Origin: a virus
Virus record (IMG/VR): IMGVR_UViG_3300030390_000633
Location: 1-28,467 of that record
Length of the DNA stretch: 28,467 bases
Strand: one strand, 5' to 3'
Positions 9,495 to 28,467 of this stretch are shown here, one piece after another; the first letter of the stretch is position 1; every line of letters begins with the position of its first letter. The notes beneath the pieces are model-generated. The model had not been told where the DNA came from. It did not search any database and saw only the letters and a list, made by a program, of their open reading frames with translations. The position numbers were made by a program, and so were the translations under genes.

Positions 9495-9522
9495 TTTTTA
9501 GTAATAATAATGTTTAATACGT

Positions 9523-9530
9523 TATAAATA
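9523..9530 (+). promoter_or_regulatory. T4-type late promoter box TATAAATA (distal, upstream of gene 8)
   Basis: Exact match in the 73-bp gap between the gp7-like gene and gene 8, 32 bp upstream of a second exact copy. T4 spacing predicts a start near 9536, giving a leader of about 32 nt that contains AAGAAGG, too far from the ATG for normal Shine-Dalgarno use. Confidence 0.65.
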
Positions 9531-9554
9531 TAATAAAGAAGGATTATAAAACAG

Positions 9555-9562
9555 TATAAATA
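9555..9562 (+). promoter_or_regulatory. T4-type late promoter box TATAAATA, immediately before gene 8
   Basis: Exact TATAAATA followed by GATAT and then the ATG at 9568. The predicted +1 coincides with the A of the start codon, the same geometry as at gene 25. Confidence 0.75.
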
Positions 9563-9567
9563 GATAT

Positions 9568-11055: not shown

Positions 11056-11066
11056 AGAGGAATTAA

Positions 11067-14000: not shown

Positions 14001-17000
14001 AGTTATATTTCAGAAACACTAGGAACAACTTTTGAATTAAGAGATAGTTTAGACTTTAGACCTAGAGTAGATGACGCTTCTACTTTACCTGGTTCAACAT
14101 CAGGTTCTGACTTTGAAAGAAGTTATAACGGTACAGGTAACTCTACAATAGACATGCCAGAATTCAATTCAGACATTACAACTGACTTTGAATTCTTTTT
14201 AAGTAGAATAGATAAAATTTTCATCACAAGAGGTGGTGAGTTAAAAGTAATTAAAGGTGCTTCTTCATTGAACCCTTTAGCGCCACAAAATTTAGAAGGT
14301 AACTTACACTTAGCAACTATTGAAATACCGGCATATACGCTTGATACAGACGAAGTGATCATCAACAAACAAGACAATAGACGATTTACTATGAGAGACA
14401 TAGGTCGTTTAGAAAAAAGAATACAGAACGTTGAATACTATACTCAACTTTCATTATTAGAAGCTGATGCACAATCTTTACAAATACAAGACGCAAATGG
14501 TTTCGATAGATTTAAAAATGGATTTGTTGTAGATAACTTTACAGGTCACAATGTTGGTGATGTTGGAAACAATGATTACAAATTATCTATTGATAGAGCT
14601 AAAGGTCAAGCAAGACCAATGTTCAACGAAGACAACATTGAGTTTGAAGAAATAGACGAAGATGGTTCAGTAATATCATCAGCAGATAGAACAGCTGCTA
14701 ATTATCAATTAACAGGTGATGTTGTAACATTACCTTACACAGAGACAAGTGTAATAGATCAACCATTCGCAACTAAAACAGAAAATCTACAACCATTTAT
14801 GATTTTCAATTGGATTGGTGATGTAGATTTAGACCCACCACTAGATGAGTGGAAAGAAACAGCTAGAGCGCCAGACATTGTAGTAAATTTAAATGGTACT
14901 TATGATAACCTAAGAAGAGCAATGGGATTAGAAAATGAATCTATCGCAACTGTTCCACTAGGTACAGAATGGAATGAATGGCAAGATCAATGGTCAGGTA
15001 ACCCTAGATCAAACGTTTCTCAAAATGGTCGAACAGTTACTACAACAACAAGTAGAGACGTTGTACAGACTAGAGGCGGTATTAGAACAGAAGTTGGACC
15101 ACAAACTGTTATTCAAAGTTTAGGTGATAGAGTTGTAGGTATAAACTTTGTTCCATTTATTAGAAGTAGATCAATCGCATTTACTGCTCAAGGTATGAGA
15201 CCAAATTCACAAGTGTTCCCATTCTTTGATGAACAATCTATCGCAGCATTCGTTACACCAACTGGTGGATCACTTGGTGGTAACATTGTTACTGACACCA
15301 ATGGTGCATGTAGTGGTACTTTCGCAATACCTGATCCAACAATAGATACTAACCCAAGATGGAGAACAGGTAAAAGAGTATTCAGATTAACAAGTTCATC
15401 TACTAACGCAAATTTAAATTCAGCTGATAGTGCAACATCAGCAGAGGCAGATTATTCTGCTAAAGGTTTACAAGAAACTGTAAGAGAAGCAATTGTTTCA
15501 ACAAGAGAAGTAAGAGTAATAAGAAGAAACGTATCAGAGTCACAAAGAATTACAAGATCATCTTCAAGTTCAGTTACTTTACCACCACCACAAAATAATG
15601 ATAGAGGCGGTGGAGGACCACCAGATCCAATAGCGCAATCATTTATGATTGACCAAGAAGATGGTTGTTATATTACAAGTGTTGATACATTTTTTGCTAC
15701 TAAATCAACTACAATTCCAGTAAGAGCTGAAATTAGAAGAATGAGCAATGGGTATCCTACAAATGATGTAATACCATTCGCACAAAAATATTTAAATCCT
15801 AATGCTGTAAACGTAAGTACAGACGCAAGTCTAAAAACAACATTTACTTTTCCATCTCCTGTATATTTACAAGAGGGTGTAGAGTATTGTCTAGTATTAA
15901 AAACAGATTCAAGTTCATATGCAGCTTATACAGCAAGATTAGGTGATACAGTAATTGGTAGTGATAGAACAGTATCTAAACAACCAGCGACAGGTGTATT
16001 ATTTAAATCAGCAAATGATAGTACATGGACACCTGAACAAATGGAAGATTTAAAATTCAATTTAAAGAAAGCAGTATTTGATGTTACTACTTCAGGTACT
16101 CTTACACTAGCAAATAAATCTTTACCTACAAGAGTATTACCCGCTAATTCATTAAGAACATTTAATGGCACTGGTGTCATAAGAGTGTTCCACAAAAACC
16201 ACGGTATGCACTCTACAAGTGATAACGTGACAATCTCTGGTGTGGGTTCTGGTGTATATAACGGCATTAACGCAACTCTAATTAATGCTACATTTACAAG
16301 TATTTCAAATATAACTTTAGATAGTTACGATATTACAACAAGTGGTACAGCAAATGCGTCTGGTGATGTTGGTGGTGCTTCAATAGTTGCTACAGAAAAT
16401 AGAGCCTTTGATGTAATGCAATTACAGATTGGTCAAATCACACAACCAGGTACAGAATTAACAGCAACAATTAAAACTACAACTGGTAAGTCAGTTCATG
16501 GTACAGAGACACCATTTACACTTGATACAAATTCATCAAATACAGTTATAGGTGATAACATTTACTTTACTTCACCGAGACTAGTTGCTAGTTCTATAAA
16601 TGAAACAAATGAAATGACAGGTAAAAATTCTCTAGTTGTTGATTTAAATATAAGTTCAGCTAACGTAAACTTATCACCATTTATAGATATGAAACGAACA
16701 AATGCGTTTGCGATTAATAACAGATTAAATAATCCTCAAGTTTCATCAACTGATACATTTACAGGTGATGGTTCAGATACAACATTTACTTTATCAGGAA
16801 CACCATCAAGTGTTCACTTATTAGCAATTAAGAAAAACGGATTAAAATTACAACCAGTTGATGACTTCACAGTTTCTGGTACAACTTTAACTATGGTTAC
16901 TGCGCCAGCTGCTGGTGCATCTGTTGTAGCAAAAATAACTAATACAGTTGACTTTGAAGAAGACACAGCAGTAGAAGGTGGTTCTTCTGAAGGTGTATAT

Positions 17001-17354
17001 GTAACTAAAACAGTTAATTTAGAAAACCCATCAACAGCTTTAGATATAAGAGTTGCGGCAAGTGTTAGATCATCTTCTTCAATTCAAGCATTCTTTAGAA
17101 TAAGTGGTGGTGAAGAAACAAGAAGAATTAAAGACATAGAGTTTACTCCATTTAACATAGATGGCGCACCCGATCAAGCGATTGACCCATCAGTAGGCGA
17201 TGAAGTACAAGATAACGATTTTAGAGATCGTCAATTTAGTGTTAGTGGTTTATCAGAGTTTACTTCTTTTGAAATTAAGATAGTATTAAGAGGTAGTGTA
17301 TCACCATATGCACCGAGACTAAAAGACTTTAGAGGAATAGCATTGGCGATATAA
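11067..17354 (+). CDS. Giant virion structural protein, DUF4815-like baseplate/fibre protein (2095 aa)
   Basis: The N-terminus (PSPTDFNLSPYFDD, FHRVLFRPAFAVQARELTQSQ, then KFGDHMFKQGSIVIPGG) is the signature of a large structural protein conserved in marine T4-like phages, which I know as a DUF4815-type family. Beta modules of the FxxGExxTGxTS type recur near residues 91, 138, 469 and 586. A second conserved block (FELRDSLDFRPRVDDAS) lies near 990. A Gly/Pro hinge (RGGGGPPDP, about 1513-1521) leads into the IAQSFMIDQEDGCYITSVDTFF domain. A fibre-type module (FTGDGSDTTFTLSG ... VSGTTLTMVTAPAAGA) spans about 1898-1953. Position after gene 8 and size suggest a peripheral baseplate or proximal fibre protein replacing T4 gp9-gp12 functions; that role is inferred. 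Confidence 0.85.
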   Translation: MPSPTDFNLSPYFDDTTEDKKFHRVLFRPAFAVQARELTQSQTILQNQMEKFGDHMFKQGSIVIPGGVAFDKKYYAVKLTSIAVSNTLAQFTTGTIITGGTSGVVAEVIGTDALVSSDPATLYVKYQKTGTNNSSFVFTNGETITGINSDSVAVSCVCNTTATGSAAIGEAGTYYINGYFVKADAETLILDKYTNTPSYRIGYTITETFITSNDDASLNDNATGSSNLNAPGAHRFKIQLTLTKKTLSSTEDSNFFEILRVENGNIKGQTRATEYNILAETLARRTFDESGDYVLTNPEFDVREHLLNGTNRGINTSGNGGLETKLAVGVSPFKAYVNGYEGEILSTTYVDVDKARDTESANNNKTRFNVKNFVNVTNVFGSPDISFVSGHTEAFKNLNLYRDPTTTRGTEVVTVGVDVTQIGRAKSRGFEYVSGEETSDIFANTGVYKHYIFDVEMFTHVDLTTSANFTTGERLTGATTGATGVVMSDTARKSAAIAITAANPSVATLSNHGFVDGQQITLTGGTYSVGGASNSGARVCVVRNTTANTFNLFDADGTTSLNVTAQSGNPTAAHTTVVLSNVQGSFSAGETVTGDISNATGSIQADSIGFKGATSFDFEQTKQVGMAGSPTYTADTVLNATQGSNVEMTGNVTVANSNATVRGKGTKFTTELKVDDSITFTNDAGASVTGIVRNIISQTELTLTANVGGSDVTTGGIPTRRRAKLQNPEQNISIFKLPNTTVSTLKTLSNGGAVDTNFTVRRQFVKTLTSNGDETFTAGSNETFVSHANDDFTVSIMTTGSGGTGAVGDSLSTSGNNHEGGAIITLGGSPAGKTLTLDFGANFAGHKVKLTATLSRSVAGSKTKTLSAAQTIAISSQSIIQSGVIGLAKADIFKINNIYMSPAFGTTPTASHTDITSRFDLDNGQRDNFYDIGRIKLKPGALKPTGQLLINFDFFSHGSGDYFDVDSYSGVVAYENIPSYISETLGTTFELRDSLDFRPRVDDASTLPGSTSGSDFERSYNGTGNSTIDMPEFNSDITTDFEFFLSRIDKIFITRGGELKVIKGASSLNPLAPQNLEGNLHLATIEIPAYTLDTDEVIINKQDNRRFTMRDIGRLEKRIQNVEYYTQLSLLEADAQSLQIQDANGFDRFKNGFVVDNFTGHNVGDVGNNDYKLSIDRAKGQARPMFNEDNIEFEEIDEDGSVISSADRTAANYQLTGDVVTLPYTETSVIDQPFATKTENLQPFMIFNWIGDVDLDPPLDEWKETARAPDIVVNLNGTYDNLRRAMGLENESIATVPLGTEWNEWQDQWSGNPRSNVSQNGRTVTTTTSRDVVQTRGGIRTEVGPQTVIQSLGDRVVGINFVPFIRSRSIAFTAQGMRPNSQVFPFFDEQSIAAFVTPTGGSLGGNIVTDTNGACSGTFAIPDPTIDTNPRWRTGKRVFRLTSSSTNANLNSADSATSAEADYSAKGLQETVREAIVSTREVRVIRRNVSESQRITRSSSSSVTLPPPQNNDRGGGGPPDPIAQSFMIDQEDGCYITSVDTFFATKSTTIPVRAEIRRMSNGYPTNDVIPFAQKYLNPNAVNVSTDASLKTTFTFPSPVYLQEGVEYCLVLKTDSSSYAAYTARLGDTVIGSDRTVSKQPATGVLFKSANDSTWTPEQMEDLKFNLKKAVFDVTTSGTLTLANKSLPTRVLPANSLRTFNGTGVIRVFHKNHGMHSTSDNVTISGVGSGVYNGINATLINATFTSISNITLDSYDITTSGTANASGDVGGASIVATENRAFDVMQLQIGQITQPGTELTATIKTTTGKSVHGTETPFTLDTNSSNTVIGDNIYFTSPRLVASSINETNEMTGKNSLVVDLNISSANVNLSPFIDMKRTNAFAINNRLNNPQVSSTDTFTGDGSDTTFTLSGTPSSVHLLAIKKNGLKLQPVDDFTVSGTTLTMVTAPAAGASVVAKITNTVDFEEDTAVEGGSSEGVYVTKTVNLENPSTALDIRVAASVRSSSSIQAFFRISGGEETRRIKDIEFTPFNIDGAPDQAIDPSVGDEVQDNDFRDRQFSVSGLSEFTSFEIKIVLRGSVSPYAPRLKDFRGIALAI

Positions 17355-17573: not shown

Positions 17574-18437
17574 ATGGCAGTAAAATTTATAGCAAAAGAC
17601 GATACACTAGAAGACTTTAGACTGGCGTTTAACGATCAGTCGGCAAACAGTTTTGGTGATATCGCTAACCTAAGTGGTTCTATCAGCGCAACTAATTTAG
17701 TTGATGCAATGAACGAAACTATTACTATTGCTGTAAACACAGCTGGTTTCACATTGAGAGATAGTACATCTAGTACACAACAAATTGGTGGTGGTAATAC
17801 ATTAAATGTTGTAGGTGCTGCTAATGAAATTACAGCAGTCGTAAGTGCTACCGATACATTAACAATTGGATTGCCTGACAATGTTACAATCACTGGTAAC
17901 TTAACTACTTCTGGAACTGGAACACATACTTTAGGAACAATTAGTATAACTGGAAATACTATATTGTCTTCAAACGCAACAGCGATTTCAATTAATGATG
18001 ATCTAACATTAGCCGCAGGTAAAACATTAACTGCTGATCTTATAACAAGTTCAACAGACTACGTAGATTTTGGAGCAAAAAATATATCAACTTCAGGACA
18101 TTTTTATACAAATTCTCCAGAAGGTATAATATTTGAAGGAACAACAGCCGATGCATTTGAAACTAAATTAATTTCTATTGATCCAACTGCTGATAGACTA
18201 ATATCACTTCCAAATGTAACTGGTACATTAATTACAACTGGAGATACAGGCACTATAACAGCGACAATGCTTGCTGCTAATGCTATAACTGCCGCTAGTA
18301 TTACTAACAATTCAATTACAATTGACAAGATGGCAAATGACTCTATAGGACAAGCACAAATGAAAGATGTTGTTGATTTACAAATACAAAACTCATCTGG
18401 TGGTATTCTTAAACAGATATTTGGGGCTGGTTCATAG
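17574..18437 (+). CDS. Tail-fibre-like protein (287 aa)
   Basis: Low-complexity beta-rich sequence full of Thr, Ser, Asn and Ala, with repeated short motifs of the ITGNLTTSGTGTHTLGTISITGNT type (about 104-130), as in trimeric beta-helical phage fibres. The N-terminus (MAVKFIAKDDTLEDFRLAFN) is compact and may be the attachment domain. The C-terminus has TITATMLAANAITAASITNNSI, a pattern common before fibre tips, and a short final helix. It lacks an obvious chaperone or receptor-binding tip, so it may be a proximal segment or adaptor. It lies 1 nt after the coiled-coil gene. Confidence 0.75.
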   Translation: MAVKFIAKDDTLEDFRLAFNDQSANSFGDIANLSGSISATNLVDAMNETITIAVNTAGFTLRDSTSSTQQIGGGNTLNVVGAANEITAVVSATDTLTIGLPDNVTITGNLTTSGTGTHTLGTISITGNTILSSNATAISINDDLTLAAGKTLTADLITSSTDYVDFGAKNISTSGHFYTNSPEGIIFEGTTADAFETKLISIDPTADRLISLPNVTGTLITTGDTGTITATMLAANAITAASITNNSITIDKMANDSIGQAQMKDVVDLQIQNSSGGILKQIFGAGS

Positions 18438-18472: not shown

Positions 18473-19201
18473 ATGAAAATATTATTAACAGGCCATAAAG
18501 GTTTTATAGGTCAACATCTATATAACTTTCTAAAAGACAATCATACAATAATCGGTATAGACGATCAATCAGGTGATAACTTATTAACCTGTGATCTAAA
18601 ACATAACGTAGATTTAGTAATACATCTTGCTGGTCTTTCTGGTGTTAGAGATAGTTTAGATAGACCAACAGATTATTGGGAACAAAACGTAATCGCTGGT
18701 CAAAGACTTTTCGATTATTTCAAAGATACAAGAATCCTATACGCAAGTTCTTCAACAGCACATGAGCCATGGAGTAATCCATATGCTATGAGTAAATATG
18801 GGTTAGAACAAATTGCGCCAAAGAATAGTGTAGGTATGAGATTTACAACAGTATATGGTCCTAATGCTAGAGAGACTATGTTGATACCAAGAATATTAAA
18901 ACATGATGTTCCTTATATCAATACAAACCATAGTAGAGATTTTATACACGTTGATGATTTAGTGAGAGCGATAAATAGTTTGATAAATTCAAACGTAAGG
19001 GGTATTACAGATATAGGTTCTGGGAGAACAAACAATCTTATAGAGTTAGTTGATTATTTCAAAATTGACTGTGAACGTGTCGTGGGAAACAAGTTTGAAA
19101 GATTGGATAACCTCGCTGATAATACCCTACTAAATAGCTTAGGTTGGTCACCTCAAATTAATTTATATGACTACATAAAGGAGAACAAAAATGATAACTG
19201 A
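18473..19201 (+). CDS. NAD-dependent epimerase/dehydratase of the extended SDR family (242 aa)
   Basis: The Rossmann signature GHKGFIG (G7-x2-G10-x2-G13) starts the protein, D30 follows beta-2 as NAD ribose ligand, HLAG (51-54) is the cofactor block, SSSTAHEP supplies the catalytic serine region, and Y104-AMS-K108 is the YxxxK pair. RFTTVYGP (about 123-130) and RDFIHVDDL are typical of UDP-glucose 4-epimerase/GDP-sugar dehydratase relatives. At 242 residues it is shorter than usual (about 310-340), mostly in the substrate domain. It probably makes or interconverts a nucleotide sugar. Its last 11 nt overlap the next gene. It lies directly after a fibre gene and faces the glycosyltransferase operon, which suggests a shared glycan pathway. 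Confidence 0.88.
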   Translation: MKILLTGHKGFIGQHLYNFLKDNHTIIGIDDQSGDNLLTCDLKHNVDLVIHLAGLSGVRDSLDRPTDYWEQNVIAGQRLFDYFKDTRILYASSSTAHEPWSNPYAMSKYGLEQIAPKNSVGMRFTTVYGPNARETMLIPRILKHDVPYINTNHSRDFIHVDDLVRAINSLINSNVRGITDIGSGRTNNLIELVDYFKIDCERVVGNKFERLDNLADNTLLNSLGWSPQINLYDYIKENKNDN

Positions 19202-19682
19202 AGAGTATCTAAAAGATAACTTTTTAACGGCATACTTTGTCGATAATGACAGAATGAATATAGAAGTACAAACTACAACGGAAGATAAGATGTCTGTATT
19301 TACTACTATCATACCATTCAAAGAAGAAAACCCTCAATGGCAAGCGCTTAATAAATTTATGACACTTGATCAATTACACGAGTCTACACACGAAAAGACT
19401 AAAGGTGAACATGAACAGTATAAAGAACAAGCACTTAAATTTGCTAAAGAAAAAGGCCTTGTTGGAAATGAGATTGCTAAAGACAATTACTTTGGTGAAA
19501 TAATTACACTTATTACCAAAGAACAAGAAAACGAAGATCATTTATTTGCTTTAAAACTTGCTATATTTGAAGTTGATGCTGTAAAAGAATCAGTAGATAT
19601 TGAGAAAAAGAAACTTGTAAGACAGAGTAAAACTAAAGCAGATTTAGTATATAACGCTTTATCAATTATCTTAAAGAAGTAA
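19191..19682 (+). CDS. Conserved-looking hypothetical (163 aa)
   Basis: The ATG lies inside the end of the epimerase gene and is preceded by AAGGAG, a strong ribosome-binding site. The N-terminal 50 residues are beta-rich (LTAYFVDNDRMNIEVQTTTEDK, VFTTIIPF), and the remainder is highly helical and charged with an ending of VYNALSIILKK. No cysteines, membrane segments or catalytic motifs. I associate similar proteins with the fibre region of cyanomyoviruses, possibly structural or chaperone-like, but no function is established. Its 3' end overlaps the convergent glycosyltransferase gene by 17 bp. Confidence 0.7.
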   Translation: MITEEYLKDNFLTAYFVDNDRMNIEVQTTTEDKMSVFTTIIPFKEENPQWQALNKFMTLDQLHESTHEKTKGEHEQYKEQALKFAKEKGLVGNEIAKDNYFGEIITLITKEQENEDHLFALKLAIFEVDAVKESVDIEKKKLVRQSKTKADLVYNALSIILKK

Positions 19683-20238
19683 AGTAGTCACTATACCAAC
19701 CAGACCAGCCTTCTTCTTGTAGATGATGCATTTGGCCTAGTGTTACTATACTGTAATCTTTTGGTTTCTCGTAGATGTAATCTTTGATTGATGGACAAAC
19801 TTTATCATAAGTTAAATAAAACGTCTCTTTAAAATAAAACTCATCACTTCCTTGGTAATATTTTTTCAAGTAAAACTGTTCTTTCGATCTAAACTTATCC
19901 CATATGTGTGATACATCGCCTGTCCATGATACAATAGACGAGTTTAGTGGCGTGTGAGCAGACTCTCTCCACCAACTGTCGTCTAGTAGTGTAAAGTTCT
20001 TTCTAATCAAGTTAGGTAGTTTATTAAAGATCACTACATCTAAATCAAAGTATAAATTCTCACCATCTCTAAACTTATCATACATTTGAAGTTTATTATA
20101 CCAATTACCATAGATATTATTTTCGATAACTTCAAAACTATCATACTTTAGACCAGAGTATGTGTCTATCATATGTTTAAGATTCTTTACATGCCAATCT
20201 GAAAACTTCTTACCAAATCTACAACAAATTATTCTCAT
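19666..20238 (-). CDS. Putative glycosyltransferase, GT-A fold with DxD (190 aa)
   Basis: The ATG at 20238 is chosen because it forms an ATGA overlap with the upstream stop; a TTG two codons earlier is less likely. The sequence begins MRIICCRFGKKFS, a GT-A-like first strand, and has the DxD metal motif at D65-L-D67 within ENLYFDLDVVIF, where a divalent metal and nucleotide sugar would bind. A C-terminal HHLQEEGWSGW resembles the His-containing end of GT8-like enzymes. At 190 residues it is a minimal enzyme. It is the last gene of the minus-strand operon. Donor and acceptor are unknown. Confidence 0.72.
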   Translation of the reverse strand: MRIICCRFGKKFSDWHVKNLKHMIDTYSGLKYDSFEVIENNIYGNWYNKLQMYDKFRDGENLYFDLDVVIFNKLPNLIRKNFTLLDDSWWRESAHTPLNSSIVSWTGDVSHIWDKFRSKEQFYLKKYYQGSDEFYFKETFYLTYDKVCPSIKDYIYEKPKDYSIVTLGQMHHLQEEGWSGWYSDYFTSLR

Positions 20239-20972
20239 AGCCAATATCTCTTTATAAAGTTGTCTCTGTGTTCATGTATAGTTTTTCCAACACCTGTAAA
20301 ATGTACAACTTTAATCTTTTCATTTACATCATCAAGTATCATATAGTCTGTATTAAACTTCTTTGAATATATCTTATTCAATTCAACATTATCCATAGTA
20401 TTATCTGAGTGTCTGCCTAACCACTCTTTAGGTGTTAGTGTTAATTTAATATTATTTTGTTGTACTTTCCAATTAACATAGTTTTGTTCTCCATAGTATT
20501 TGTGATGAACAACACCAGTATTGTAATAGTGTAATTGCCAAAAGTGTGGATTAAATGAGAAGTCGTCCCATATACTTTTTACACCACCTGATTTAAACTT
20601 ATAGAAACCACCGTTTAACTTTAATTTAGTATCCCACCATTGACCATATGTTATCAATTCGTTATCATCAACAGGGTGATTTAAAAGATCATCAACATTA
20701 TTTGTAATAACTTGATCTATATCCATTATGATAATATCGTCACCAGGTTTTTGACCTCCAAATTGAGGACTAAAAAACTTTAACTTATGCCAGTGTTTCT
20801 TTATACGACTATGATGGTTATAAGGTAATACTAAATCAGCCTCAACGTCTGTATCACTCAAACATATAAACTCAAAAGGTACTGTACTGTTTCTCTTTAG
20901 ACTTCTATATAATTTACTTACATAGTCTGGCGTGTAGAAGCCTTTAAAATATACAGTACATATCTTAAGCAC
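20235..20972 (-). CDS. Putative glycosyltransferase, GT-A fold with DxD (245 aa)
   Basis: The start is taken as the GTG at 20972, because GGAG lies 5 nt upstream and the protein then begins MLKICTVYFKGFYT, a typical GT-A first strand; the longer TTG start would add 7 residues inside the neighbour. The DxD motif is D84-I-D86 (IIIMDIDQVI). Conserved-looking pieces include WHKLKFFSPQF (about 61-71) before the DxD, a YNTGVV block, and a terminal VVHFTGVGKTIHEH, where the HFTG histidine is typical of GT8-like transferases. It overlaps the upstream gene by 8 nt and the downstream one by 4. Likely adds a sugar to a glycan or protein. Confidence 0.78.
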   Translation of the reverse strand: MLKICTVYFKGFYTPDYVSKLYRSLKRNSTVPFEFICLSDTDVEADLVLPYNHHSRIKKHWHKLKFFSPQFGGQKPGDDIIIMDIDQVITNNVDDLLNHPVDDNELITYGQWWDTKLKLNGGFYKFKSGGVKSIWDDFSFNPHFWQLHYYNTGVVHHKYYGEQNYVNWKVQQNNIKLTLTPKEWLGRHSDNTMDNVELNKIYSKKFNTDYMILDDVNEKIKVVHFTGVGKTIHEHRDNFIKRYWL

Positions 20973-21828
20973 GTTTACTCCAAACAAAATCAAAATCTTT
21001 ATTAATACAATGTACTAATTTTGTATCATCAGGTATATAACCTTGTATATCAAAAAAGTAATGCCACTTATTGTCTAACCATTGAATAGGTACATTGTTT
21101 ATTTGTTTCTTATATGAGAAGATAGTTTCGTTATCATATCTAAACATATCAATAATATTTTGTGTGTATATGCCAGGTTTACTTTCTCTTAATTTTGTCA
21201 TTATATCAATTGTGTCTTTAAACCCGCCAAAGAAATCTAATTTTATAATATCTTCTTTACTTGCTCCAATGATACCTGTATTGATAACATCATTTACAGG
21301 TTTAAAACCTTGATCATGTAACATGGCGTGACAATTAAAATATTTTGCTGATGGACTTCTAATACCTTCACTTGTATCCATACTCTTATTTACTTTAGGA
21401 TTATTATTATACACACAGATACCTTTAGACAAATCCCAGTTATTAAAGAAAGACGCTTCACGTGGGTGTTCTTTTGTAAATGGTATTACATCAAAGTCTA
21501 GGTATAATATTTCATCATAAGTCTTTGATAGTTCATTAAGTAAGTGTATCTTGTAGAAGTTAATAACTTCATAACCAGTGAACATAGGAAAGTCTTTTAA
21601 GAAGTTTTGTTCAAATGTTTTGTATTGTTCATCATACTCATACATTATAAAATCTACATCACATCTCTTAGCATACCATTGTTTAACTTCAACTAATCTA
21701 TCGTAATGTTTTTTAAAAGCATCAACAGTTTTATTAGCCTTTTCAGGTGTGTCTCGCCAATTTTTAGAATCACCATAGTGTTCTTTTGCTGGCACGTCAA
21801 CATATAAACTGTATATTACTCGTTTCAT
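20965..21828 (-). CDS. Putative glycosyltransferase, GT-A fold with DxD (287 aa)
   Basis: This is the largest of three adjacent glycosyltransferase-like genes. The N-terminus MKRVIYSLYVDVP is a GT-A-like strand. The metal motif is D111-F-D113 in ILYLDFDVIPF, preceded by a NFYKIHLLNELSK helix as in GT8-like enzymes. Further on come a NTGIIGA block (about 182-188) and a final KLVHCINKDFDF, again with the late histidine of the family. It overlaps the upstream methyltransferase in an ATGA junction. Three different GTs in a row suggest assembly of a short glycan, each adding one residue; this is inference. Confidence 0.75.
   Translation of the reverse strand: MKRVIYSLYVDVPAKEHYGDSKNWRDTPEKANKTVDAFKKHYDRLVEVKQWYAKRCDVDFIMYEYDEQYKTFEQNFLKDFPMFTGYEVINFYKIHLLNELSKTYDEILYLDFDVIPFTKEHPREASFFNNWDLSKGICVYNNNPKVNKSMDTSEGIRSPSAKYFNCHAMLHDQGFKPVNDVINTGIIGASKEDIIKLDFFGGFKDTIDIMTKLRESKPGIYTQNIIDMFRYDNETIFSYKKQINNVPIQWLDNKWHYFFDIQGYIPDDTKLVHCINKDFDFVWSKRA
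20978..20981 (-). promoter_or_regulatory. Shine-Dalgarno GGAG selecting a GTG start
   Basis: GGAG on the minus strand, 5 nt before the GTG at 20972-20970, inside the last codons of the upstream gene. It fixes the glycosyltransferase start at GTG rather than at an upstream TTG. Confidence 0.6.
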
Positions 21829-22559
21829 ATTTTACCAATTAATGTAAATCTAGTTCCTGTCTCAAATGGCATACTATCTTCTATTAAGACTTCTGCTCTA
21901 TCAGGTAATTGTGTTTTAAATTGTTCTATTGTTTTAACACAATTATAACTATCGTGTATATCAAATATATTGTGTGATTGAAAAGCAAAGTATGCTGGTT
22001 TTTCTCTATTCGCTACTCTATCCCACCAAGGATCTGTATAAGTTTGAGGTATACCAAATCTTTTTCTATATATTTCATCATACCTTGATTTTGGTCCAAT
22101 TGGTCCCCAATCTCTCATAGGTTTCATATTTTCACAAGAAGTATTGATAAACAAATCTGTTGTTTTAAATTGATCTCTAAAAGTCGCAAACACATCATCT
22201 GAAATCCAATCTACATCAAGGTCTTTAAATAAAGTATATTTAGCCATATTTAACATGGTTTTATTTTTATCAATACATGTAATTTTTTTAACCTTATCAT
22301 AGAATGCTGGTATTAATATACTACCATACCAACTACCAAATATAACTATCTCAGATTCTTTTGTTAAAAAATCTAAACTATTAACATGATCAACTAAATT
22401 CATTTTAGATGAAAACTGATTAGGACTAAACGAATCTAATAAGTCTTTTTCTTCACCACTTCTATTTAAACCCCGACTAGTCGCAGGAGTGTTAACCGCT
22501 TCTCTCATGTCAGGTGTTATTACCAAGTTCATTATTGTTTGTAATAATTTTACATTCAT
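21825..22559 (-). CDS. Putative SAM-dependent methyltransferase (244 aa)
   Basis: A class I (Rossmann) methyltransferase pattern: motif I-like IVIFGSWYG (G75 to G79), then KKITCIDKNK with the acidic residue D97 at the end of beta-2, ISDDVFATF as motif III, and DLFINTSCENM as motif IV. Motif I is degenerate (G-S-W-Y-G rather than GxGxG), so SAM binding is probable, not certain. The substrate is unknown; a sugar, small metabolite or amino acid are all possible. The start overlaps the upstream stop in a TAATG junction and the stop overlaps the next ATG, so it is co-translated with a Cys-cluster protein and a glycosyltransferase. Confidence 0.68.
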   Translation of the reverse strand: MNVKLLQTIMNLVITPDMREAVNTPATSRGLNRSGEEKDLLDSFSPNQFSSKMNLVDHVNSLDFLTKESEIVIFGSWYGSILIPAFYDKVKKITCIDKNKTMLNMAKYTLFKDLDVDWISDDVFATFRDQFKTTDLFINTSCENMKPMRDWGPIGPKSRYDEIYRKRFGIPQTYTDPWWDRVANREKPAYFAFQSHNIFDIHDSYNCVKTIEQFKTQLPDRAEVLIEDSMPFETGTRFTLIGKI

Positions 22560-22900
22560 TATTTACCTTTCCTTATTATCATATTACCAGAATCGTCAAA
22601 CCATTCTTCTACTTTTAATCTATCTTCTCCATCATCTAAACAATGATGTTTACACACATCAGGTATCTTATCTAAATCACCTGTTGATAATGTTTCATAA
22701 AACTGTGTCCATTCATTAGTAGTTATAATATCTCTTAAACTCTCATTTTCGGATATAACACTTACATTCAATAACTTTTTAATTTCAGGATATTGTATCC
22801 ATTTAGGAGTATCAATATAACAACAAGGTAATAGACGACCTCTATTATCTACAGCAATCTGTGTAGTAGATGTCATACATTTAGGTCTAAACTTTTGCAT
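22559..22900 (-). CDS. Stand-alone SPASM/twitch-like Cys-cluster protein, partner of radical SAM 1 (113 aa)
   Basis: The cysteine pattern is C8-x17-C26-C27-x55-C83-x3-C87. The context QIAVDNRGRLLPCCYID matches the 'GxxxPCC' strand of SPASM/twitch auxiliary iron-sulphur domains, and SLRDIITTNEWTQFYETL matches the helix that follows in such proteins. Normally this domain is the C-terminal (or N-terminal) part of a radical SAM enzyme; here it is a separate gene immediately downstream of a radical SAM core, overlapping it by 14 nt. It likely binds a 4Fe-4S cluster and works in trans with the core. No clear ribosome-binding site is seen, so coupling is probable. Confidence 0.7.
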   Translation of the reverse strand: MQKFRPKCMTSTTQIAVDNRGRLLPCCYIDTPKWIQYPEIKKLLNVSVISENESLRDIITTNEWTQFYETLSTGDLDKIPDVCKHHCLDDGEDRLKVEEWFDDSGNMIIRKGK

Positions 22901-23594
22901 TATATTGATTCGACCATATTCTATAATTTTTATTTAGTGGCATTAACGGATCGTCCTCAGAAAACCACTTTGATGAATAGTTTAGATTAAAATGAATATT
23001 ATTATCTTGCGCTAGTTTTTTTGCTTCATCTATATCGTTTTCATTATATCTAAATATGATATACTGCCAAACAGGTGTAATGTTTAAATACTTTTTTGAC
23101 TCGATCATTATATCAAATAGTTTTTCACCATCTTGGTTAGTTCTATACTTGTGACTATCTTTAGGTAGACCATCAATACCAAATACCCATTTTAAATCAG
23201 TATGTGCTTTGAATGCTTCTATATACCACTCTTTAGATTTTAAAGATGAAGCGTTATGTATTGTACCACCAACGTTTTTACTTCTACATAATCGTAATAT
23301 GTCAATAAAGTTTTTATTATGAACAGGATCAGATAATTGTCCACAAAAATTTATTGTCTGGAACATATCCGTTATTTTATCAAAGTCTTCTACTGTTAAA
23401 TCATGTCCAGGTATTTCTTTATTATCATCAAAGTATGTTTGTCGTTGACACCTTGAACATTCTAGTCCACATCTTGCTGATAGATCAACATTTACACCAG
23501 TGTTTTCACCATCATCTCTTAAAAAAAATTGTTTGCTGTGATAAGAAGATAAAAATGGTTTTATCTCATTTACAAAGTTACTATTATCATACAT
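22887..23594 (-). CDS. Radical SAM enzyme 1, core domain only (235 aa)
   Basis: The start is the ATG at 23594, which overlaps the upstream stop in TAATG; an earlier TTG is less likely. The cluster motif is C42-x3-C46-x2-C49 (ARCGLECSRCQR), the canonical CxxxCxxC that binds the 4Fe-4S cluster and SAM. A FCGQLSDPVHN block at about 83-93 stands where GGEP is found in classical members. FGIDGLPKDSHKYRTNQDG and PVWQYIIFRYNEND follow and are nearly repeated in the second radical SAM enzyme at 27076-27783. There is no auxiliary cluster in this chain; that domain is encoded by the next gene. The reaction is not predictable from sequence. Confidence 0.85.
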   Translation of the reverse strand: MYDNSNFVNEIKPFLSSYHSKQFFLRDDGENTGVNVDLSARCGLECSRCQRQTYFDDNKEIPGHDLTVEDFDKITDMFQTINFCGQLSDPVHNKNFIDILRLCRSKNVGGTIHNASSLKSKEWYIEAFKAHTDLKWVFGIDGLPKDSHKYRTNQDGEKLFDIMIESKKYLNITPVWQYIIFRYNENDIDEAKKLAQDNNIHFNLNYSSKWFSEDDPLMPLNKNYRIWSNQYNAKV

Positions 23595-26494
23595 TATTTT
23601 CTTATTATCCAATCATTTATAACAAGTAAGTCTAACTCTGTTTTCTTAAATGTTTTTATAGCTTGTTCAGGTGTTTCTACAATAGGTTCCTGACAATTAA
23701 AACTTGTATTCAATAACATAGGTATACCTGTAATCTTATAAAACTCATTTATAATATTGTAAAACTTTTCGTTAAACTCTTTATTAACAGTTTGTATTCT
23801 AGCAGTATTATCTAAATGAGTTATTCCAGGTACCTTGTCTGATTTAACTTGACATATTCTACTCATATAAGGACTAGGTCCTCCTCTTGTATCAAAGTAA
23901 TCTTTGTAATGTTCTTCTAATACAGCAGGTGCGAATGGTCTAAAGTCTTCTCTCATTTTAATTGTACGGTTAATAATATTTTTGATATCAGGATTACGAG
24001 GGTCTGCTAATATACTTCTATTACCTAATGCTCGATTACCACTTTCTGATTTACCTTGAAACCAACCCACTATCTTACCATCGGCGATTGCTTGAGCGAC
24101 TTCTTTGTAATTAACTTTTTCTTTCCCAACATAATCATACTCTTTACCAGCAAATGTTTCAGCCACATGTATATTGTTATTCAAAGTATAATCAGCATGT
24201 TGATACGCCCCTATGGCCTGTCCCTCGTCTCCTATTGCCGGTGGAACATGAACATTAGTATAGTGTTTAGTAAATTCTTCATTCATATAACCATTGTATG
24301 CCACACCACCTGCGATACATAGATTATCACAAGACTTTAATGGATAAACAAACTCTTTTATCTTATCCATTGTAAATTTCTGTAGAGTAAACGCCAAGTC
24401 ATTTATACTATCTAATTTTATACGTTGAAAATGTTTTTGTTTCTTTTCTGTAATAGGTCCGTCTAATATAGTTTCAAATGTATCATAATAATATTGACTG
24501 TATTTTCCATATGCCACAAGTCCCATTAATTTACTAGCGCCTAGTGTTCCAAATCCTGTTAAGTTAGACATATGATTCCATAACCAACCAATTGGTAACT
24601 TATCTGATAGATCAATTAAGTTCTGGTCTTTATCAAAGAATACACATCTGTATTTTGACCCGATACCATCTATCGCTAGTATATCTGATTGTTTATAGCC
24701 TGAATTAAGAAAGGCATATGCGGCGTGTGATTGATGATGGTCTATAAAGTACATATCATCTTTGAAGTAATGGTCCCACAATTTTTTAGGTTCATAATCA
24801 AATATATCTTGTGGTAATATATCTTTACAATTTCTAATACCACCATATGTGTAAGTGAATGCTAGAACGCCATTTGTTCCATCTCGTTCTTGTTTATCCC
24901 AATACTTTCGCATAAACTCATTATTTAAACGATAGTCTGCTGGATTTAATATATCTGATTGGTGAGCATACGCCTCAGCGTGATAAGGTAAATTATGTTT
25001 AAATCTAGTTTCTCTTTCTCTTTGATCGTGCCATACACCATCATATGCGTTATGATCATGTAAGTTTAATGCTACTGAATATATTTTCTTCACTCTTTTT
25101 TCCTCATTATATTTTTTCAATTCAGGATACACATCAAATAGATCCATTTCCCATTTAGTACCTTTGTAGTATTTATCCAATGCTAATAAGTAGTCTATTG
25201 TGTCCAAATAAGATAATCCGTTATTGTCTTCTTTTAATACATTTTGTATATCAGGAAAGTTAGTATACTTTGGGATAAGTTCTTTTTTTATTTCATCAGG
25301 TAAAACATTAGCACATAACTTTGCTGGCCCTCTTATGTTGGACCAATTAATCTGGTCAAATAATTCAGAGTTATTATCAAACCATTCTATAAGTTCATAA
25401 AATCTTAAAACGCTAAGAAAAGATATAGTACCATTTACATTTATAGTCACATTAGGATATTTTTTTATTTCTTTAATATTATTAACTATGTCTTCCCAAT
25501 TTGATCTACGTCTAATATATTCATCAGCTTTACCAATACTATCAAGTGACACTGTAAGTTCAAATTTTCTAAAATGTTTAGTATAGTCGGTAATCTTATA
25601 TTTACCGTGTCCCATGACAGACATATTTGTTTGAAATTTTACTTGCATTCGTTTAGAATAGCCTGTCTCTATCATAGCGTCAAGTAGTTTATAATATTGT
25701 TTCATAACTAGTGGTTCTCCACCAATTAACTTAACATTCCAAATGTAAGGAGCAAAGTCTGCTATCTGATCAATGACAGATTGTAGAGGTGCGCCTTTCA
25801 TCTGATTAACTTTAGTCTTGTTACCGTTTTCAATACCATACTTGTTAAACGCTGTTTGATCTTTCAGTTCATCAGAATTCATAGTTTGAGTTCTCATAGA
25901 AGAATCATAAGTATGACACATAAAACAATCTAAATTACATTGATTACCAAATGCTTTAATCTGTACTTCAAAAATTTTATGTTCTATATGACCTTTACCT
26001 GTTGCTTTATATTTCAATATAGCCTCACGCTGTAAATTCCAAAAACTAGGAACGTTACTTAAAATTTTAAGAGAAGCCACCCTCCTTGATCTACCATATA
26101 GTTTTTCTTGTTTGATACATGACTCACATGATTTTTTTGTTAATTCTAAATCCGAATCTGGCGATAACATTTCGTCCCGAAGTTGATTTAGTTTAGGGTC
26201 ATTTTCAAACCAATCTTTTATTGAAGTGTCTCTTATATTTGCTCCAAACTGCTTTGTGTCAGCCCAAGAGCAGGGTGCGTAATCACCTGGAACATCAGTA
26301 TATAATACTTGAAAGGGAGCATTACAAAAATAAATTTCTTCATTTTTAATTTGTTTTTCTAATTCAGTTTTACCTACTTCTGGATTATGAAACCAAGTGC
26401 TGGTATCTACGCTACCCCCACCTTTAAAAACATCTCCAGGACCACCTTTAGTTAAATGAGCAGGAAGTTTTTTACCATTGTTATTCTTCGTCAT
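23594..26494 (-). CDS. Radical SAM-carbamoyltransferase fusion protein (966 aa)
   Basis: One uninterrupted frame holds two enzymes. Residues about 50-130 are an auxiliary Cys domain (C57-x17-C75, C123-x2-C126). Residues about 175-400 are a radical SAM core with C186-x3-C190-x2-C193 (CNLDCFMC), LIGGEP (256-261), and SLDSIGKADEYIRRR. After a linker, residues about 468-966 are a NodU/TobZ-type O-carbamoyltransferase with NLHDHNA at the start, HHQSHAA (586-592), CIAGGVAYNG (726-735), ESGNRALGNRSILADPR (817-833), REDFRPFAP (848-856) and LLNTSFNCQEPIVETP (927-942). The second half should carry carbamoyl-adenylate chemistry and O-carbamoylate an acceptor hydroxyl. Radical SAM and carbamoyl transfer are probably sequential on one substrate. 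The gene overlaps its neighbours by 14 nt upstream and 1 nt downstream. Confidence 0.9.
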   Translation of the reverse strand: MTKNNNGKKLPAHLTKGGPGDVFKGGGSVDTSTWFHNPEVGKTELEKQIKNEEIYFCNAPFQVLYTDVPGDYAPCSWADTKQFGANIRDTSIKDWFENDPKLNQLRDEMLSPDSDLELTKKSCESCIKQEKLYGRSRRVASLKILSNVPSFWNLQREAILKYKATGKGHIEHKIFEVQIKAFGNQCNLDCFMCHTYDSSMRTQTMNSDELKDQTAFNKYGIENGNKTKVNQMKGAPLQSVIDQIADFAPYIWNVKLIGGEPLVMKQYYKLLDAMIETGYSKRMQVKFQTNMSVMGHGKYKITDYTKHFRKFELTVSLDSIGKADEYIRRRSNWEDIVNNIKEIKKYPNVTINVNGTISFLSVLRFYELIEWFDNNSELFDQINWSNIRGPAKLCANVLPDEIKKELIPKYTNFPDIQNVLKEDNNGLSYLDTIDYLLALDKYYKGTKWEMDLFDVYPELKKYNEEKRVKKIYSVALNLHDHNAYDGVWHDQRERETRFKHNLPYHAEAYAHQSDILNPADYRLNNEFMRKYWDKQERDGTNGVLAFTYTYGGIRNCKDILPQDIFDYEPKKLWDHYFKDDMYFIDHHQSHAAYAFLNSGYKQSDILAIDGIGSKYRCVFFDKDQNLIDLSDKLPIGWLWNHMSNLTGFGTLGASKLMGLVAYGKYSQYYYDTFETILDGPITEKKQKHFQRIKLDSINDLAFTLQKFTMDKIKEFVYPLKSCDNLCIAGGVAYNGYMNEEFTKHYTNVHVPPAIGDEGQAIGAYQHADYTLNNNIHVAETFAGKEYDYVGKEKVNYKEVAQAIADGKIVGWFQGKSESGNRALGNRSILADPRNPDIKNIINRTIKMREDFRPFAPAVLEEHYKDYFDTRGGPSPYMSRICQVKSDKVPGITHLDNTARIQTVNKEFNEKFYNIINEFYKITGIPMLLNTSFNCQEPIVETPEQAIKTFKKTELDLLVINDWIIRK

Positions 26495-27095
26495 ATCTAT
26501 TAAATGAAAAATTCAATTGTTCAAATTTGTCTGTTAGTTGTATATCAAATGCGTTATGTTCTTTTATATGATCATATACTTGTTTAAATCCATTATATGC
26601 TTTTTCTGTTGAATTAACTCCTGGTTGTTCATATTCTGCACACATGGGTAAATGTATTATAGTTTGATATCCTATTTTTGACCAATGTACAGCACTAATT
26701 GGTTTTGCATTAATAACACAACCTCCCAATTCACACCCACCTATAATTATTTGTGTATCACTTGGTCTCGCATGCCAACCAATAGCTTGATGTACAAGAG
26801 AGTCTATATACGTAATCGTCATACTCTTTATCTCGTTGTATTCGCTTAATTGTACAACTTTAAACCCATAATGTGTTTTACACATTGTTAATATTGCGTC
26901 TAACTTTCGGTCATTACCTTTCTTCGTGTTTGTAACTATAATTAGTTTTTCTTTATCAATATTATTACCAAGTGCTAGTCTTTGTAGTTCTGAGTACCTT
27001 CTGTTATTTACATAATCATCACCAAGTAAAGGTGCCCCTATAAAGTCAATTAAAAGTACAACCGTTTTATGTTTTCTATTTTCGCTTTTTATCAT
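26481..27095 (-). CDS. Isochorismatase-like cysteine hydrolase, divergent (204 aa)
   Basis: The ATG at 27095 is preceded by AAGGA at 5 nt and is preferred over an upstream in-frame ATG at 27110. The first strand TVVLLIDFIGAPL resembles the isochorismatase-family strand with the catalytic Asp (IDF), and GGCELGGCVINAKPISA followed by GYQTIIHLPMCAEYEQPG resembles the nucleophile-elbow block with the catalytic Cys (GGCV) and the strand after it. A lysine-rich TNTKKG lies between. The usual substrate-lid motifs are not obvious, so the assignment is tentative. Such enzymes hydrolyse amides, ureas or vinyl ethers. Placed between two radical SAM genes, it may process a carbamoyl, ureido or amide intermediate. 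Confidence 0.5.
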   Translation of the reverse strand: MIKSENRKHKTVVLLIDFIGAPLLGDDYVNNRRYSELQRLALGNNIDKEKLIIVTNTKKGNDRKLDAILTMCKTHYGFKVVQLSEYNEIKSMTITYIDSLVHQAIGWHARPSDTQIIIGGCELGGCVINAKPISAVHWSKIGYQTIIHLPMCAEYEQPGVNSTEKAYNGFKQVYDHIKEHNAFDIQLTDKFEQLNFSFNRYDEE

Positions 27096-27783
27096 TAAGT
27101 TCCTTATCATTCATAAATATAGTTTCATGTAGTAATTGCTGAGATTTATCACGTCTGCCTTGTGTTCTATCTAAACTTAGGTTTTTCTTGGTAGGTCTTA
27201 AAGGATCATTTTCGCCCATCCACCTTGATGAATTGATTACTATAAACTTCACACCTATTTCAGTTGCCATATCTCTACATGCTTCAATATCATTTTCATT
27301 AAAATTAAATACAATGTATTGCCATATTGGTAGATTCTTTAAATACTTAACACTATCTTTCATTATATCAAATAATTTTATACCGTCCTGGTTAGTTCTA
27401 TACTTATGACTATCTTTAGGAAAACCATCAATACCAAACCACCATTGAGCTCTTGGATTTGCTTGAAAGGCTGTAGGATACCACTTCAAAGGTTTAGCAG
27501 CTGATGCGTGATGAATACTACATGTATGGTCTTTTCTTTCATATATCATTTTCAAAAATTCTGTAAATTTTGGGTGATGAACAGGGTCAGACACTTGACC
27601 ACAAAAATTTATATGATTAAAAAAGTCAAGCACCTTAGCAAAATCTTCAATAGATAAATCTTCACCAGGAACCTTTAGACCTTTACTTGTGAATGAAGTA
27701 TATCTTTGACACCTCATACACTCTAATGGACACCTATGTGTAATATCAATATTAATTCCTCGTCTCTTAAATAAAGTATTCAT
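27076..27783 (-). CDS. Radical SAM enzyme 2, core domain only (235 aa)
   Basis: A paralogue of the radical SAM gene at 22887-23594. It has C18-x3-C22-x2-C25 (HRCPLECMRCQR), FCGQVSDPVHH (60-70), FGIDGFPKDSHKYRTNQDG and PIWQYIVFNFNENDI in the same order, so the two enzymes probably use related substrates. Differences lie mostly at the N-terminus (this copy starts about 24 residues closer to the Cys motif) and after residue 190. Its C-terminus is Lys/Asp/Asn-rich and lacks the auxiliary cluster, which is in the gene upstream. It starts 1 nt after that gene's stop and overlaps the next by 20 nt. Confidence 0.85.
   Translation of the reverse strand: MNTLFKRRGINIDITHRCPLECMRCQRYTSFTSKGLKVPGEDLSIEDFAKVLDFFNHINFCGQVSDPVHHPKFTEFLKMIYERKDHTCSIHHASAAKPLKWYPTAFQANPRAQWWFGIDGFPKDSHKYRTNQDGIKLFDIMKDSVKYLKNLPIWQYIVFNFNENDIEACRDMATEIGVKFIVINSSRWMGENDPLRPTKKNLSLDRTQGRRDKSQQLLHETIFMNDKELNDKKRK
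27101..27105 (-). promoter_or_regulatory. Shine-Dalgarno AAGGA selecting the isochorismatase-like start
   Basis: AAGGA on the minus strand, 5 nt before the ATG at 27095. It lies inside the 3' end of the radical SAM 2 gene and supports the shorter of two in-frame starts. Confidence 0.55.
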
Positions 27784-27784
27784 T

Positions 27785-28135
27785 TTACGTATCTCTTACC
27801 CTTTTCTCAAAACCAGGTTCATATATTGTTTGTTTTTGAAACTTTGCTTCTTTTTTACATATTTTGTGACATTGAGGAAAACCTTTTCCATTTGCTAAAT
27901 CTTTATTAAAATCAATCCACTCTGGTTGTAATAGTATATCTTCTATACTATCATGGTCTTTAATATTACTAACTGATAATAGTTTTTGATATGCTGGATC
28001 CACTCTATTGTTTTGATTATCTAACCAACAACAAGGTATCAACTCACCTCTATTAGTAAAACCATAATTGTGTTGTCTTTGATCAAAACATTTTGGGTCT
28101 AACTCATTTATTTTTTCTTTATCTTCTTTATTCAT
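27785..28135 (-). CDS. Stand-alone SPASM/twitch-like Cys-cluster protein, partner of radical SAM 2 (116 aa)
   Basis: The ATG at 28135 is chosen: GAGG lies 6 nt upstream, and it overlaps the preceding stop; a longer frame would need a TTG ten codons earlier. The cysteines follow C16-x18-C35-C36-x52-C89-x3-C93, with YGFTNRGELIPCCWLDN and SIEDILLQPEWIDFNKDL as the equivalents of the paralogous gene at 22559-22900. It is therefore the auxiliary-cluster partner of radical SAM 2, encoded upstream of its core, whereas in pair 1 the order is reversed. Predicted to bind an iron-sulphur cluster and contact the core in trans. Confidence 0.7.
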   Translation of the reverse strand: MNKEDKEKINELDPKCFDQRQHNYGFTNRGELIPCCWLDNQNNRVDPAYQKLLSVSNIKDHDSIEDILLQPEWIDFNKDLANGKGFPQCHKICKKEAKFQKQTIYEPGFEKRVRDT

Positions 28136-28467
28136 TGTCGTCCTCAAATGAAAAGATATCCTCAAAGGGTGGGCAAGTATCTTTTGCTAGATTTTCTTTT
28201 TGCATATTCTGCCATTTATATTTCTGTGCCTTACCTATTGTTTGTATTAGAAATGGGTGATATTTAACAAATTGAAAGTGCTCTGAATTATTCCATGGTT
28301 CTATCCAATGAGGAAAACAAGCATTATACGAAGTGTCCCAATTGTTATCTAAAACTGCTCCTGTAATACATTTAGCAAGCATTCCTACCTCTATACCCCA
28401 AGCTTCTCTTCCTTTTGGTATATAAGTCTCTCGTCCCATCTCCCATTGTGTACCTGTTTTAGCACAT
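28128..28467 (-). CDS. Hypothetical protein, 5'-truncated by the window edge
   Basis: The frame continues without a stop to the right end of the window (upstream codons read CAKTGTQWE before the ATG at 28439), so the real start is probably outside. Visible residues include GRETYIPKGREAWGIEVG, several tryptophans (WDTSYN, HWIEPWNN) and an acidic C-terminal tail FEDDNE. Aromatic-rich and soluble, with three scattered cysteines that form no recognisable motif. It overlaps the Cys-cluster gene by 8 nt, so it belongs to the same operon. I do not recognise the family. Confidence 0.6.
   Translation of the reverse strand, partial: CAKTGTQWEMGRETYIPKGREAWGIEVGMLAKCITGAVLDNNWDTSYNACFPHWIEPWNNSEHFQFVKYHPFLIQTIGKAQKYKWQNMQKENLAKDTCPPFEDIFSFEDDNE
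28142..28145 (-). promoter_or_regulatory. Shine-Dalgarno GAGG selecting the Cys-cluster start
   Basis: GAGG on the minus strand, 6 nt before the ATG at 28135. It favours this ATG over an upstream in-frame TTG at 28165. Confidence 0.55.

Follow-up and report, generated by a model that had tools for sequence, protein, structure and literature searches.

What does a phage make with a densely packed run of radical S-adenosylmethionine (SAM), carbamoyltransferase and glycosyltransferase genes beside its baseplate genes, and to what is the product attached? The question is raised by a 28,467-nucleotide stretch of viral DNA (hereafter the window), the first 28,467 bases of the 29,870-base IMG/VR record IMGVR_UViG_3300030390_000633. 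Eleven minus-strand open reading frames (ORFs) at positions 19666–28439 face plus-strand genes for T4-like baseplate proteins (wedge subunits and related proteins), a VrlC-type protein, a fibre-like protein, an epimerase (EP) and a protein that we call c12. The run belongs to a larger cassette with a fixed core and plug-in accessory enzymes. Because DegT aminotransferase, carbamoyltransferase, epimerase, methyltransferase and glycosyltransferases form the vocabulary of modified amino-sugar synthesis, we have moderate confidence that the cassette is predicted correctly as a glycan pathway. More tentatively, it may be a phage-encoded, all-soluble cytoplasmic pathway for an O-carbamoylated, probably methylated amino-sugar glycan that is most likely attached to tail-fibre or baseplate-associated proteins of the phage itself.

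Composition and inheritance of the cassette

The initial annotation described eleven joined minus-strand genes, and they indeed overlap by 1–38 nt or lie 1 nt apart. From low to high coordinate the junctions measure −10, −29, −4, −1, −14, −19, −14, −35, +1 and −38 nt; overlap lengths vary with the choice of start codon, and several of the chosen starts are TTG. Dense packing is general among relatives, where 664 of 770 cassette junctions overlap. From the upstream end, the genes of the window are:

28128–28439, minus strand: NR, C-terminal part of a nitroreductase-like flavoprotein; the gene runs past the window end across a 10-N gap and encodes 228 aa in contig L003
27785–28165, minus strand: SP, stand-alone SPASM-type iron-sulfur subunit, predicted partner of 27076–27783 (Pfam SPASM 0.0025, below cut-off)
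27076–27783, minus strand: rS, radical SAM core protein, CPLECMRC (PHROG 21308, 3e-8; 53% identity to a gene of phage Mosig, discussed below)
26481–27110, minus strand: IC, putative isochorismatase-like or cysteine hydrolase, accessory member (motif only: GGxxxGGCV, invariant Asp and Cys)
23594–26494, minus strand: TW~CT, 966-aa fusion of a twitch radical SAM part (about 1–467, CNLDCFMC) and an O-carbamoyltransferase (468–966) (NF033640, Carbam_trans)
22887–23612, minus strand: second rS, radical SAM core protein, CGLECSRC (PHROG 21308, 9e-14)
22559–22900, minus strand: second SP, stand-alone SPASM-type subunit (Pfam SPASM 3e-4, below cut-off)
21825–22559, minus strand: MT, Rossmann methyltransferase-like protein (family profile against the MJ0882 methyltransferase 4e-5, weak)
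20965–21828, minus strand: G8, GT8-like glycosyltransferase (Pfam GT8 0.0028, below cut-off)
20235–20993, minus strand: Ga, glycosyltransferase (PHROG 1962, 7e-13)
19666–20244, minus strand: Gb, glycosyltransferase-like protein, final cassette gene (PHROG 1962, 7e-6)

The right end of the window, at the 10-N gap inside the NR gene, cuts the cassette. Contig L003, from another metagenome, is 99.98% identical over 4,594 bases and continues upstream. It completes NR, after which come a second NR, the radical SAM protein R4 (273 aa), the DegT aminotransferase DT, another twitch protein (TW), SG, the PP-loop ATPase PP and part of GB. Motifs weakly suggest that GB is a putative glycosyltransferase and SG an SGNH-like protein, an assignment of the same kind as that of IC. 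Profile searches of the PDB with GB and SG gave no match, nor did Pfam and PDB searches with IC, including a profile search of the PDB. The whole set in the virus of the window comprises about 18 genes in the order GB-PP-SG-TW-DT-R4-NR-NR-SP-rS-IC-TW~CT-rS-SP-MT-G8-Ga-Gb; its 3' end faces c12 and EP. The portion first taken for a complete pathway is therefore incomplete, with at least seven further genes upstream of it.

Searches of viral contigs gave 45 matches for the fused protein, 309 for R4, 135 for c12 and 389 for another phage gene, c15, with 80 kept for each of the last three; the searches retain the most similar loci, and counts are thus biased towards cassette carriers. After removal of near-identical DNA, at least three core families are present in 105 of 122 distinct loci. 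Gene order is kept across 77 distinct R4 loci as GB-[rS/SP]-SG-DT-R4-CT-[NR/PP/TW]-MT-G8-Ga-Gb. The scattering of these genes among relatives that the initial annotation had allowed for was not seen, and content as well as order is conserved across the 77 loci. Both ends of the gene run are present in 17 of them, which we treat as complete clusters. DT, R4, CT and MT each occur in all 17, GB in 16, G8 and NR in 14, SG in 12, and rS, SP, Ga and Gb in 11 each; a clearer nitroreductase (N2) is present in 8, and PP and TW in 3. On these family counts, a fixed core is supplemented by plug-in accessory enzymes. Members are also fused to one another (TW~CT, TW~PP and rS~SP). Given a co-inherited module of conserved order and content with fusions between its members, the proposal that it makes a decorated group and attaches it is the best interpretation.

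On the facing strand, EP and c12 appear to be part of the module because cassette genes are present at 76 of 78 distinct c12 loci, the remaining two of which end just past c12. Among 50,697 phage records, c12 occurs in Mosig only. The border is made up of the following genes:

19191–19682, plus strand: c12, 163-aa protein tied to the cassette by co-occurrence
18473–19201, plus strand: EP, nucleoside diphosphate (NDP)-sugar epimerase/dehydratase (PF01370 1.4e-25; PHROG 540, 6e-48), overlapping c12
17574–18437, plus strand: c17, fibre-like virion protein rich in Ser and Thr (25%) and candidate acceptor (weak matches to tail fibre or baseplate PHROGs)
11067–17354, plus strand: VrlC-like baseplate/tail protein of 2095 aa at the margin of the host recognition cluster (same family as the Mosig 'putative VrlC protein')

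The facing epimerase-like gene seen from the outset is confirmed by its PF01370 match and is the probable precursor supply for the cassette. A relative of c17 in the cultured pelagimyophage HTVC008M carries the annotation baseplate wedge initiator. We rejected c15 as a strict cassette partner; it is not in the window and occurs without the cassette in two contigs. Of 55 loci, 14 (6 expected) have a T4-late-like TATAAAT close to the first cassette gene, mostly at −13 from the start codon, an unusual place, and we make no claim for it. Near the left end of the window, a minus-strand tRNA-His (GTG) gene (834–907) adjoins a minus-strand 383-aa ORF (911–2062) with no PHROG match.

R4 is virus-specific and the cassette is a virus pathway. 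The protein is present in one of 50,697 phage records, that of Mosig. Of 84,980 prokaryotic genomes three have it, and in all three it is on a contig of a marine metagenome-assembled genome (MAG) with cassette gene order. Two of these three MAG contigs also carry the phage genes c12, c15 and c17, and we read all three as phage sequence in bins. R4 was found in none of 146 other SAR11-family genomes.

The cultured Pelagibacter phage Mosig EXVC030M (MT647606), described in 2021 (PMC7892664), has an orthologous cassette in the same place, beside VrlC. Its carbamoyltransferase is 79% identical to that of the window. Unlike the window, Mosig has unfused carbamoyltransferase and radical SAM genes, and the 41 kb examined contain one rS/SP pair and lack a twitch protein. 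The Mosig cassette is annotated with putative molybdenum cofactor enzymes and hypotheticals only. A second enzyme cluster at 8560–14813 of Mosig abuts the cassette in opposite orientation and encodes hydroxylases, an acetyltransferase, a dioxygenase, a peroxiredoxin, a flavin mononucleotide reductase, an aminotransferase and a desaturase. A tail sheath resembling that of Mosig (72–83% identity) is present in four long carriers. Contigs L032–L040 and L047 have divergent cassettes with carbamoyltransferases 55–61% identical to that of the window and no VrlC neighbours. A Mosig-like tail sheath is present in none of these partial sequences, and the cassette may therefore live in another phage group as well. 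HTVC008M lacks R4; consecutive genes at 10982–15129 encode a methyltransferase, a distantly related carbamoyltransferase, a PP-loop protein of the NAD-synthetase type and a UDP-glucose dehydrogenase, and may represent a second and simpler realisation of this scheme.

Predicted enzymes and their substrates

The identity of the carbamoyltransferase is certain from its domains. The N and C domains of Pfam Carbam_trans are both present (2.5e-20 and 7.3e-66), and in an alignment of 28 carbamoyltransferases the metal-binding HHxxH and Asp and the C-terminal RALG and NTSFN motifs are intact. The closest characterised relatives and PDB matches, NovN, GdmN and TobZ of the NodU/CmcH family, have both domains and all these motifs in common with it. 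Cassette enzymes differ from them in having GNRALG instead of GPRALG (76 of 76 checked) and, in the window lineage, in being fused to a radical SAM domain. The predicted activity is O-carbamoylation of a hydroxyl acceptor.

A 5-hydroxymethylcytosine carbamoyltransferase is known from a virome (PMC8670742) and some cyanophage relatives adjoin an annotated DNA methyltransferase, which would be consistent with the carbamoyltransferase and its neighbours modifying phage DNA, for example to carbamoylated hydroxymethylcytosine with further groups added by the other enzymes. We consider this highly improbable. Cassette carbamoyltransferases form a clade separate from the DNA-linked ones, with a long stem and support of 100/100, in a tree that was built without the characterised metagenomic hydroxymethylcytosine enzyme and in which Xp15 is a long branch. 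Their neighbourhood also differs from that of true DNA types: the Xp15 gene is beside a thymidylate synthase and a dCMP deaminase, and the known genes of DNA type are accompanied by PF00303 thymidylate synthases, not glycosyltransferases (PMC8670742). PF00303 was found in none of 13 sequences, namely Mosig, HTVC008M (a relative only) and eleven long partial carrier contigs, three of them of 128–171 kb. A search for PF00145, which bears on a 5-methylcytosine route, missed its own positive control, P-RSM6, and the argument covers the hydroxymethylcytosine route. By that route, the DNA target listed in the initial annotation is unlikely, given the separate clade and the lack of PF00303 in the carriers tested. 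For cytosine-specific carbamoyltransferases, three positions have been put forward (W408, G421 and R423, TobZ numbering; PMC8670742), but they were not used here, as the paper's text does not specify which amino acids characterise the DNA-linked enzymes. In cyanophages P-RSM6 (L159, 1246–4957) and S-WAM1 (L163, 1030–4966), a replication-region carbamoyltransferase is beside a 2-oxoglutarate-Fe oxygenase and an annotated DNA methyltransferase, a gene set that could provide a DNA route from methylcytosine through hydroxymethylcytosine to a carbamoyl product.

All three radical SAM cores of the window have CxxxCxxC (CNLDCFMC, CPLECMRC and CGLECSRC), and the fused core alone passes a curated cut-off (NF033640, 289 vs 170 bits). 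Invariant cysteines of the twitch protein are C57, C75, C123, C126, C186, C190 and C193. The CxxxCxxC motif is kept in 72 of 74 rS relatives. The two SP ORFs fall just below the Pfam SPASM cut-off (21.3 and 18.5 vs 21.5 bits), and a Cys-Cys motif is present in 65 of 67 members of the SP family. An SP gene is adjacent to 80 of 92 rS-type genes and fused to rS in four loci, suggesting that rS and SP are the parts of a two-part (split) radical SAM/SPASM enzyme. The twitch protein is joined to the carbamoyltransferase in the window lineage, a fusion found in further contigs with 70–90% identity, and to the PP-loop ATPase in L038, L039 and L044 (744-aa ORF); several fusion contigs are near-identical, and independent fusions are therefore few. 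In an AlphaFold model of the N-terminal, twitch part of the fusion (predicted local distance difference test score, pLDDT, 82.5), fold neighbours were BlsE, MoaA, SuiB, SkfB, DesII and viperin, a list that shows only the common radical SAM fold.

Peptides are the commonest substrates of SPASM-type radical SAM enzymes, the twitch model also matches SuiB and SkfB, and nitroreductase-like proteins occur in pathways for ribosomally synthesized and post-translationally modified peptides (RiPPs). Radical SAM/SPASM proteins might thus modify a peptide or a virion side chain directly, with carbamoylation and glycosylation following on the modified residue. We regard this as improbable. The overlapping junctions leave no room for an adjacent precursor gene, though a precursor could be embedded or distant, and no protease or exporter was seen. 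The DegT aminotransferase and the several glycosyltransferases point instead to sugar chemistry; the best PDB matches of the former are scyllo-inositol transaminase, QdtB and WbpE, which are aminocyclitol or sugar aminotransferases.

Several other activities in the window are predicted from sub-threshold or motif evidence. Of those first proposed, carbamoyl transfer stands as certain, isochorismatase-like hydrolysis is suggested by a motif only and methylation by a weak match, and SPASM, GT8 and two of the radical SAM cores are below curated cut-offs. The NR family matches Pfam Nitroreductase weakly (0.0088 in a neighbouring copy) and the window copy has no match.

Gene content, order, co-inheritance, fusions, intact carbamoyltransferase and radical SAM motifs and the virus-restricted core are established, and we propose a pathway from them. 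The epimerase would supply an NDP-sugar, on which the radical SAM enzymes (twitch and two-part radical SAM plus SPASM) and nitroreductase-like flavoproteins would carry out redox chemistry. The DegT enzyme would aminate it, the carbamoyltransferase would carbamoylate it using carbamoyl phosphate and ATP, and the methyltransferase would cap it. Glycosyltransferases would then assemble the glycan and transfer it to an acceptor.

Virion or host envelope as acceptor

We prefer a virion acceptor over the host envelope only slightly. In its favor, the cassette adjoins VrlC and Ser/Thr-rich fibre genes, c12 is linked to the cassette, and in 13 loci (11 contigs) GB is directly after c12 on the strand of the structural genes. 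No transmembrane segments were found in window proteins (maximum mean Kyte-Doolittle 1.57). We do not take the high Ser/Thr content of c15 and c17 to prove that they are glycosylated, as other structural proteins are nearly as rich.

Several observations weigh against attachment to the virion or against the pathway as proposed. Ser/Thr content is 0.19–0.25 in most large structural proteins of the window and does not single out c17. In 32 of 59 loci, c12 and the adjacent cassette gene are on opposite strands, and in other phage lineages (L032–L040 and L047) the cassette is away from VrlC. The AlphaFold model of R4 (pLDDT 63.5) has no significant PDB match and was not used, leaving the fold of this core protein uninformative. 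All substrates, the order of steps and the acceptor are our deductions. Lastly, the island has been interpreted in the literature as modifying the host O-chain (PMC7029224).

That view corresponds to a competing explanation, possible though doubtful, in which the same carbamoyl-aminosugar pathway alters the host envelope (lipopolysaccharide core, O-chain or capsule precursors) during infection and masks the receptor from rival phages or from the phage's own progeny. It is the published interpretation of pelagimyophage glycosyltransferases (PMC7029224), and it accords with the GT8-like enzyme and with the host-recognition genes of the island. A carbamoyltransferase match is present in 84 of 147 SAR11-family genomes searched, all but one distant. 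Related SAR11 carbamoyltransferases neighbour glycosyltransferases and NDP-sugar epimerases, which fits polysaccharide synthesis and makes a host acceptor glycan plausible. However, the part of the cassette in the window encodes no lipid-carrier enzyme, flippase, polymerase, initiating transferase or membrane protein, and the 146 SAR11-family genomes have no R4. The 13 loci in which the cassette is co-directional with structural genes hint at late expression, which also argues against a change to the envelope.

Relation to described systems

The slot occupied by the cassette is that of the pelagimyophage host recognition cluster, an island with glycosyltransferases and radical SAM cassettes that begins at VrlC in the structural region and was described in 2020 (Zaragoza-Solas et al.; PMC7029224). 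A variable island bounded by VrlC fits the window, in which the island follows VrlC (11067–17354) and cassette flanks vary. As to the other boundary, the neck gene gp14, the record stops within the cassette; the neck genes of Mosig are at 38–40 kb, beyond the fibre genes. The 2020 paper treats the island as variable, without mention of a carbamoyltransferase (PMC7029224), whereas we define a fixed core, a constant gene order, virus-specific radical SAM and carbamoyltransferase clades, and fusions. The initial impression of a combination unfamiliar as a phage module is partly wrong, given that the island with its glycosyltransferases and radical SAM cassettes had been described. In the limited set of literature searched, no paper describes the conserved pathway, the split or fused radical SAM enzymes, or a virus-only carbamoyltransferase clade.

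Another T4-like group has a radical SAM cluster, described in 2010 (PMC2853527). In Campylobacter phages CP220 and CPt10, an operon close to the baseplate genes combines five radical SAM genes with genes for an amidinotransferase and two nucleotide-diphospho-sugar transferases, and is interchangeable between phages (PMC2853527). It differs from the cassette in that no carbamoyltransferase or DegT is annotated in the 20 kb examined, and identity is 25% in one radical SAM protein only. The CP220 operon (L165, NC_027997; 7297–15880) is an apparent independent counterpart of the cassette.

The chlorovirus capsid is glycosylated in the cytoplasm by virus-encoded glycosyltransferases, most of which are soluble (PMC5408694). 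Chloroviruses are eukaryotic viruses and the likeness to the cassette is an analogy of principle only. To our knowledge, chlorovirus capsid glycosylation involves no radical SAM or carbamoyltransferase step. A phage equivalent, in which the rS and SP enzymes and TW~CT would oxidize and carbamoylate a sugar carried by tail-fibre proteins and so produce a previously unknown virion glycan by radical chemistry, is conceivable but rather unlikely. Pathways for aminocyclitols and aminosugars (BtrN/SpeY, DesII) combine a radical SAM redox enzyme, a DegT aminotransferase, a glycosyltransferase and an O-carbamoyltransferase as the cassette does. Unlike in these pathways, no cyclitol synthase was seen in the cassette, and its radical SAM proteins are related to theirs at the superfamily level only.

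SAR11 ranks with the most abundant bacterial groups on Earth, and in its T4-like phages this pathway takes up some 10–20 kb and 10 to 20 enzyme genes. The virus-only radical SAM family, the natural fusion of radical SAM and carbamoyltransferase, and the split radical SAM/SPASM enzymes are targets for biochemistry. With a cultured carrier available (Mosig on HTCC1062), the question is directly testable by mass spectrometry. If virions or the host surface are decorated, then host range, co-infection and resistance in SAR11 systems would have to be reinterpreted.

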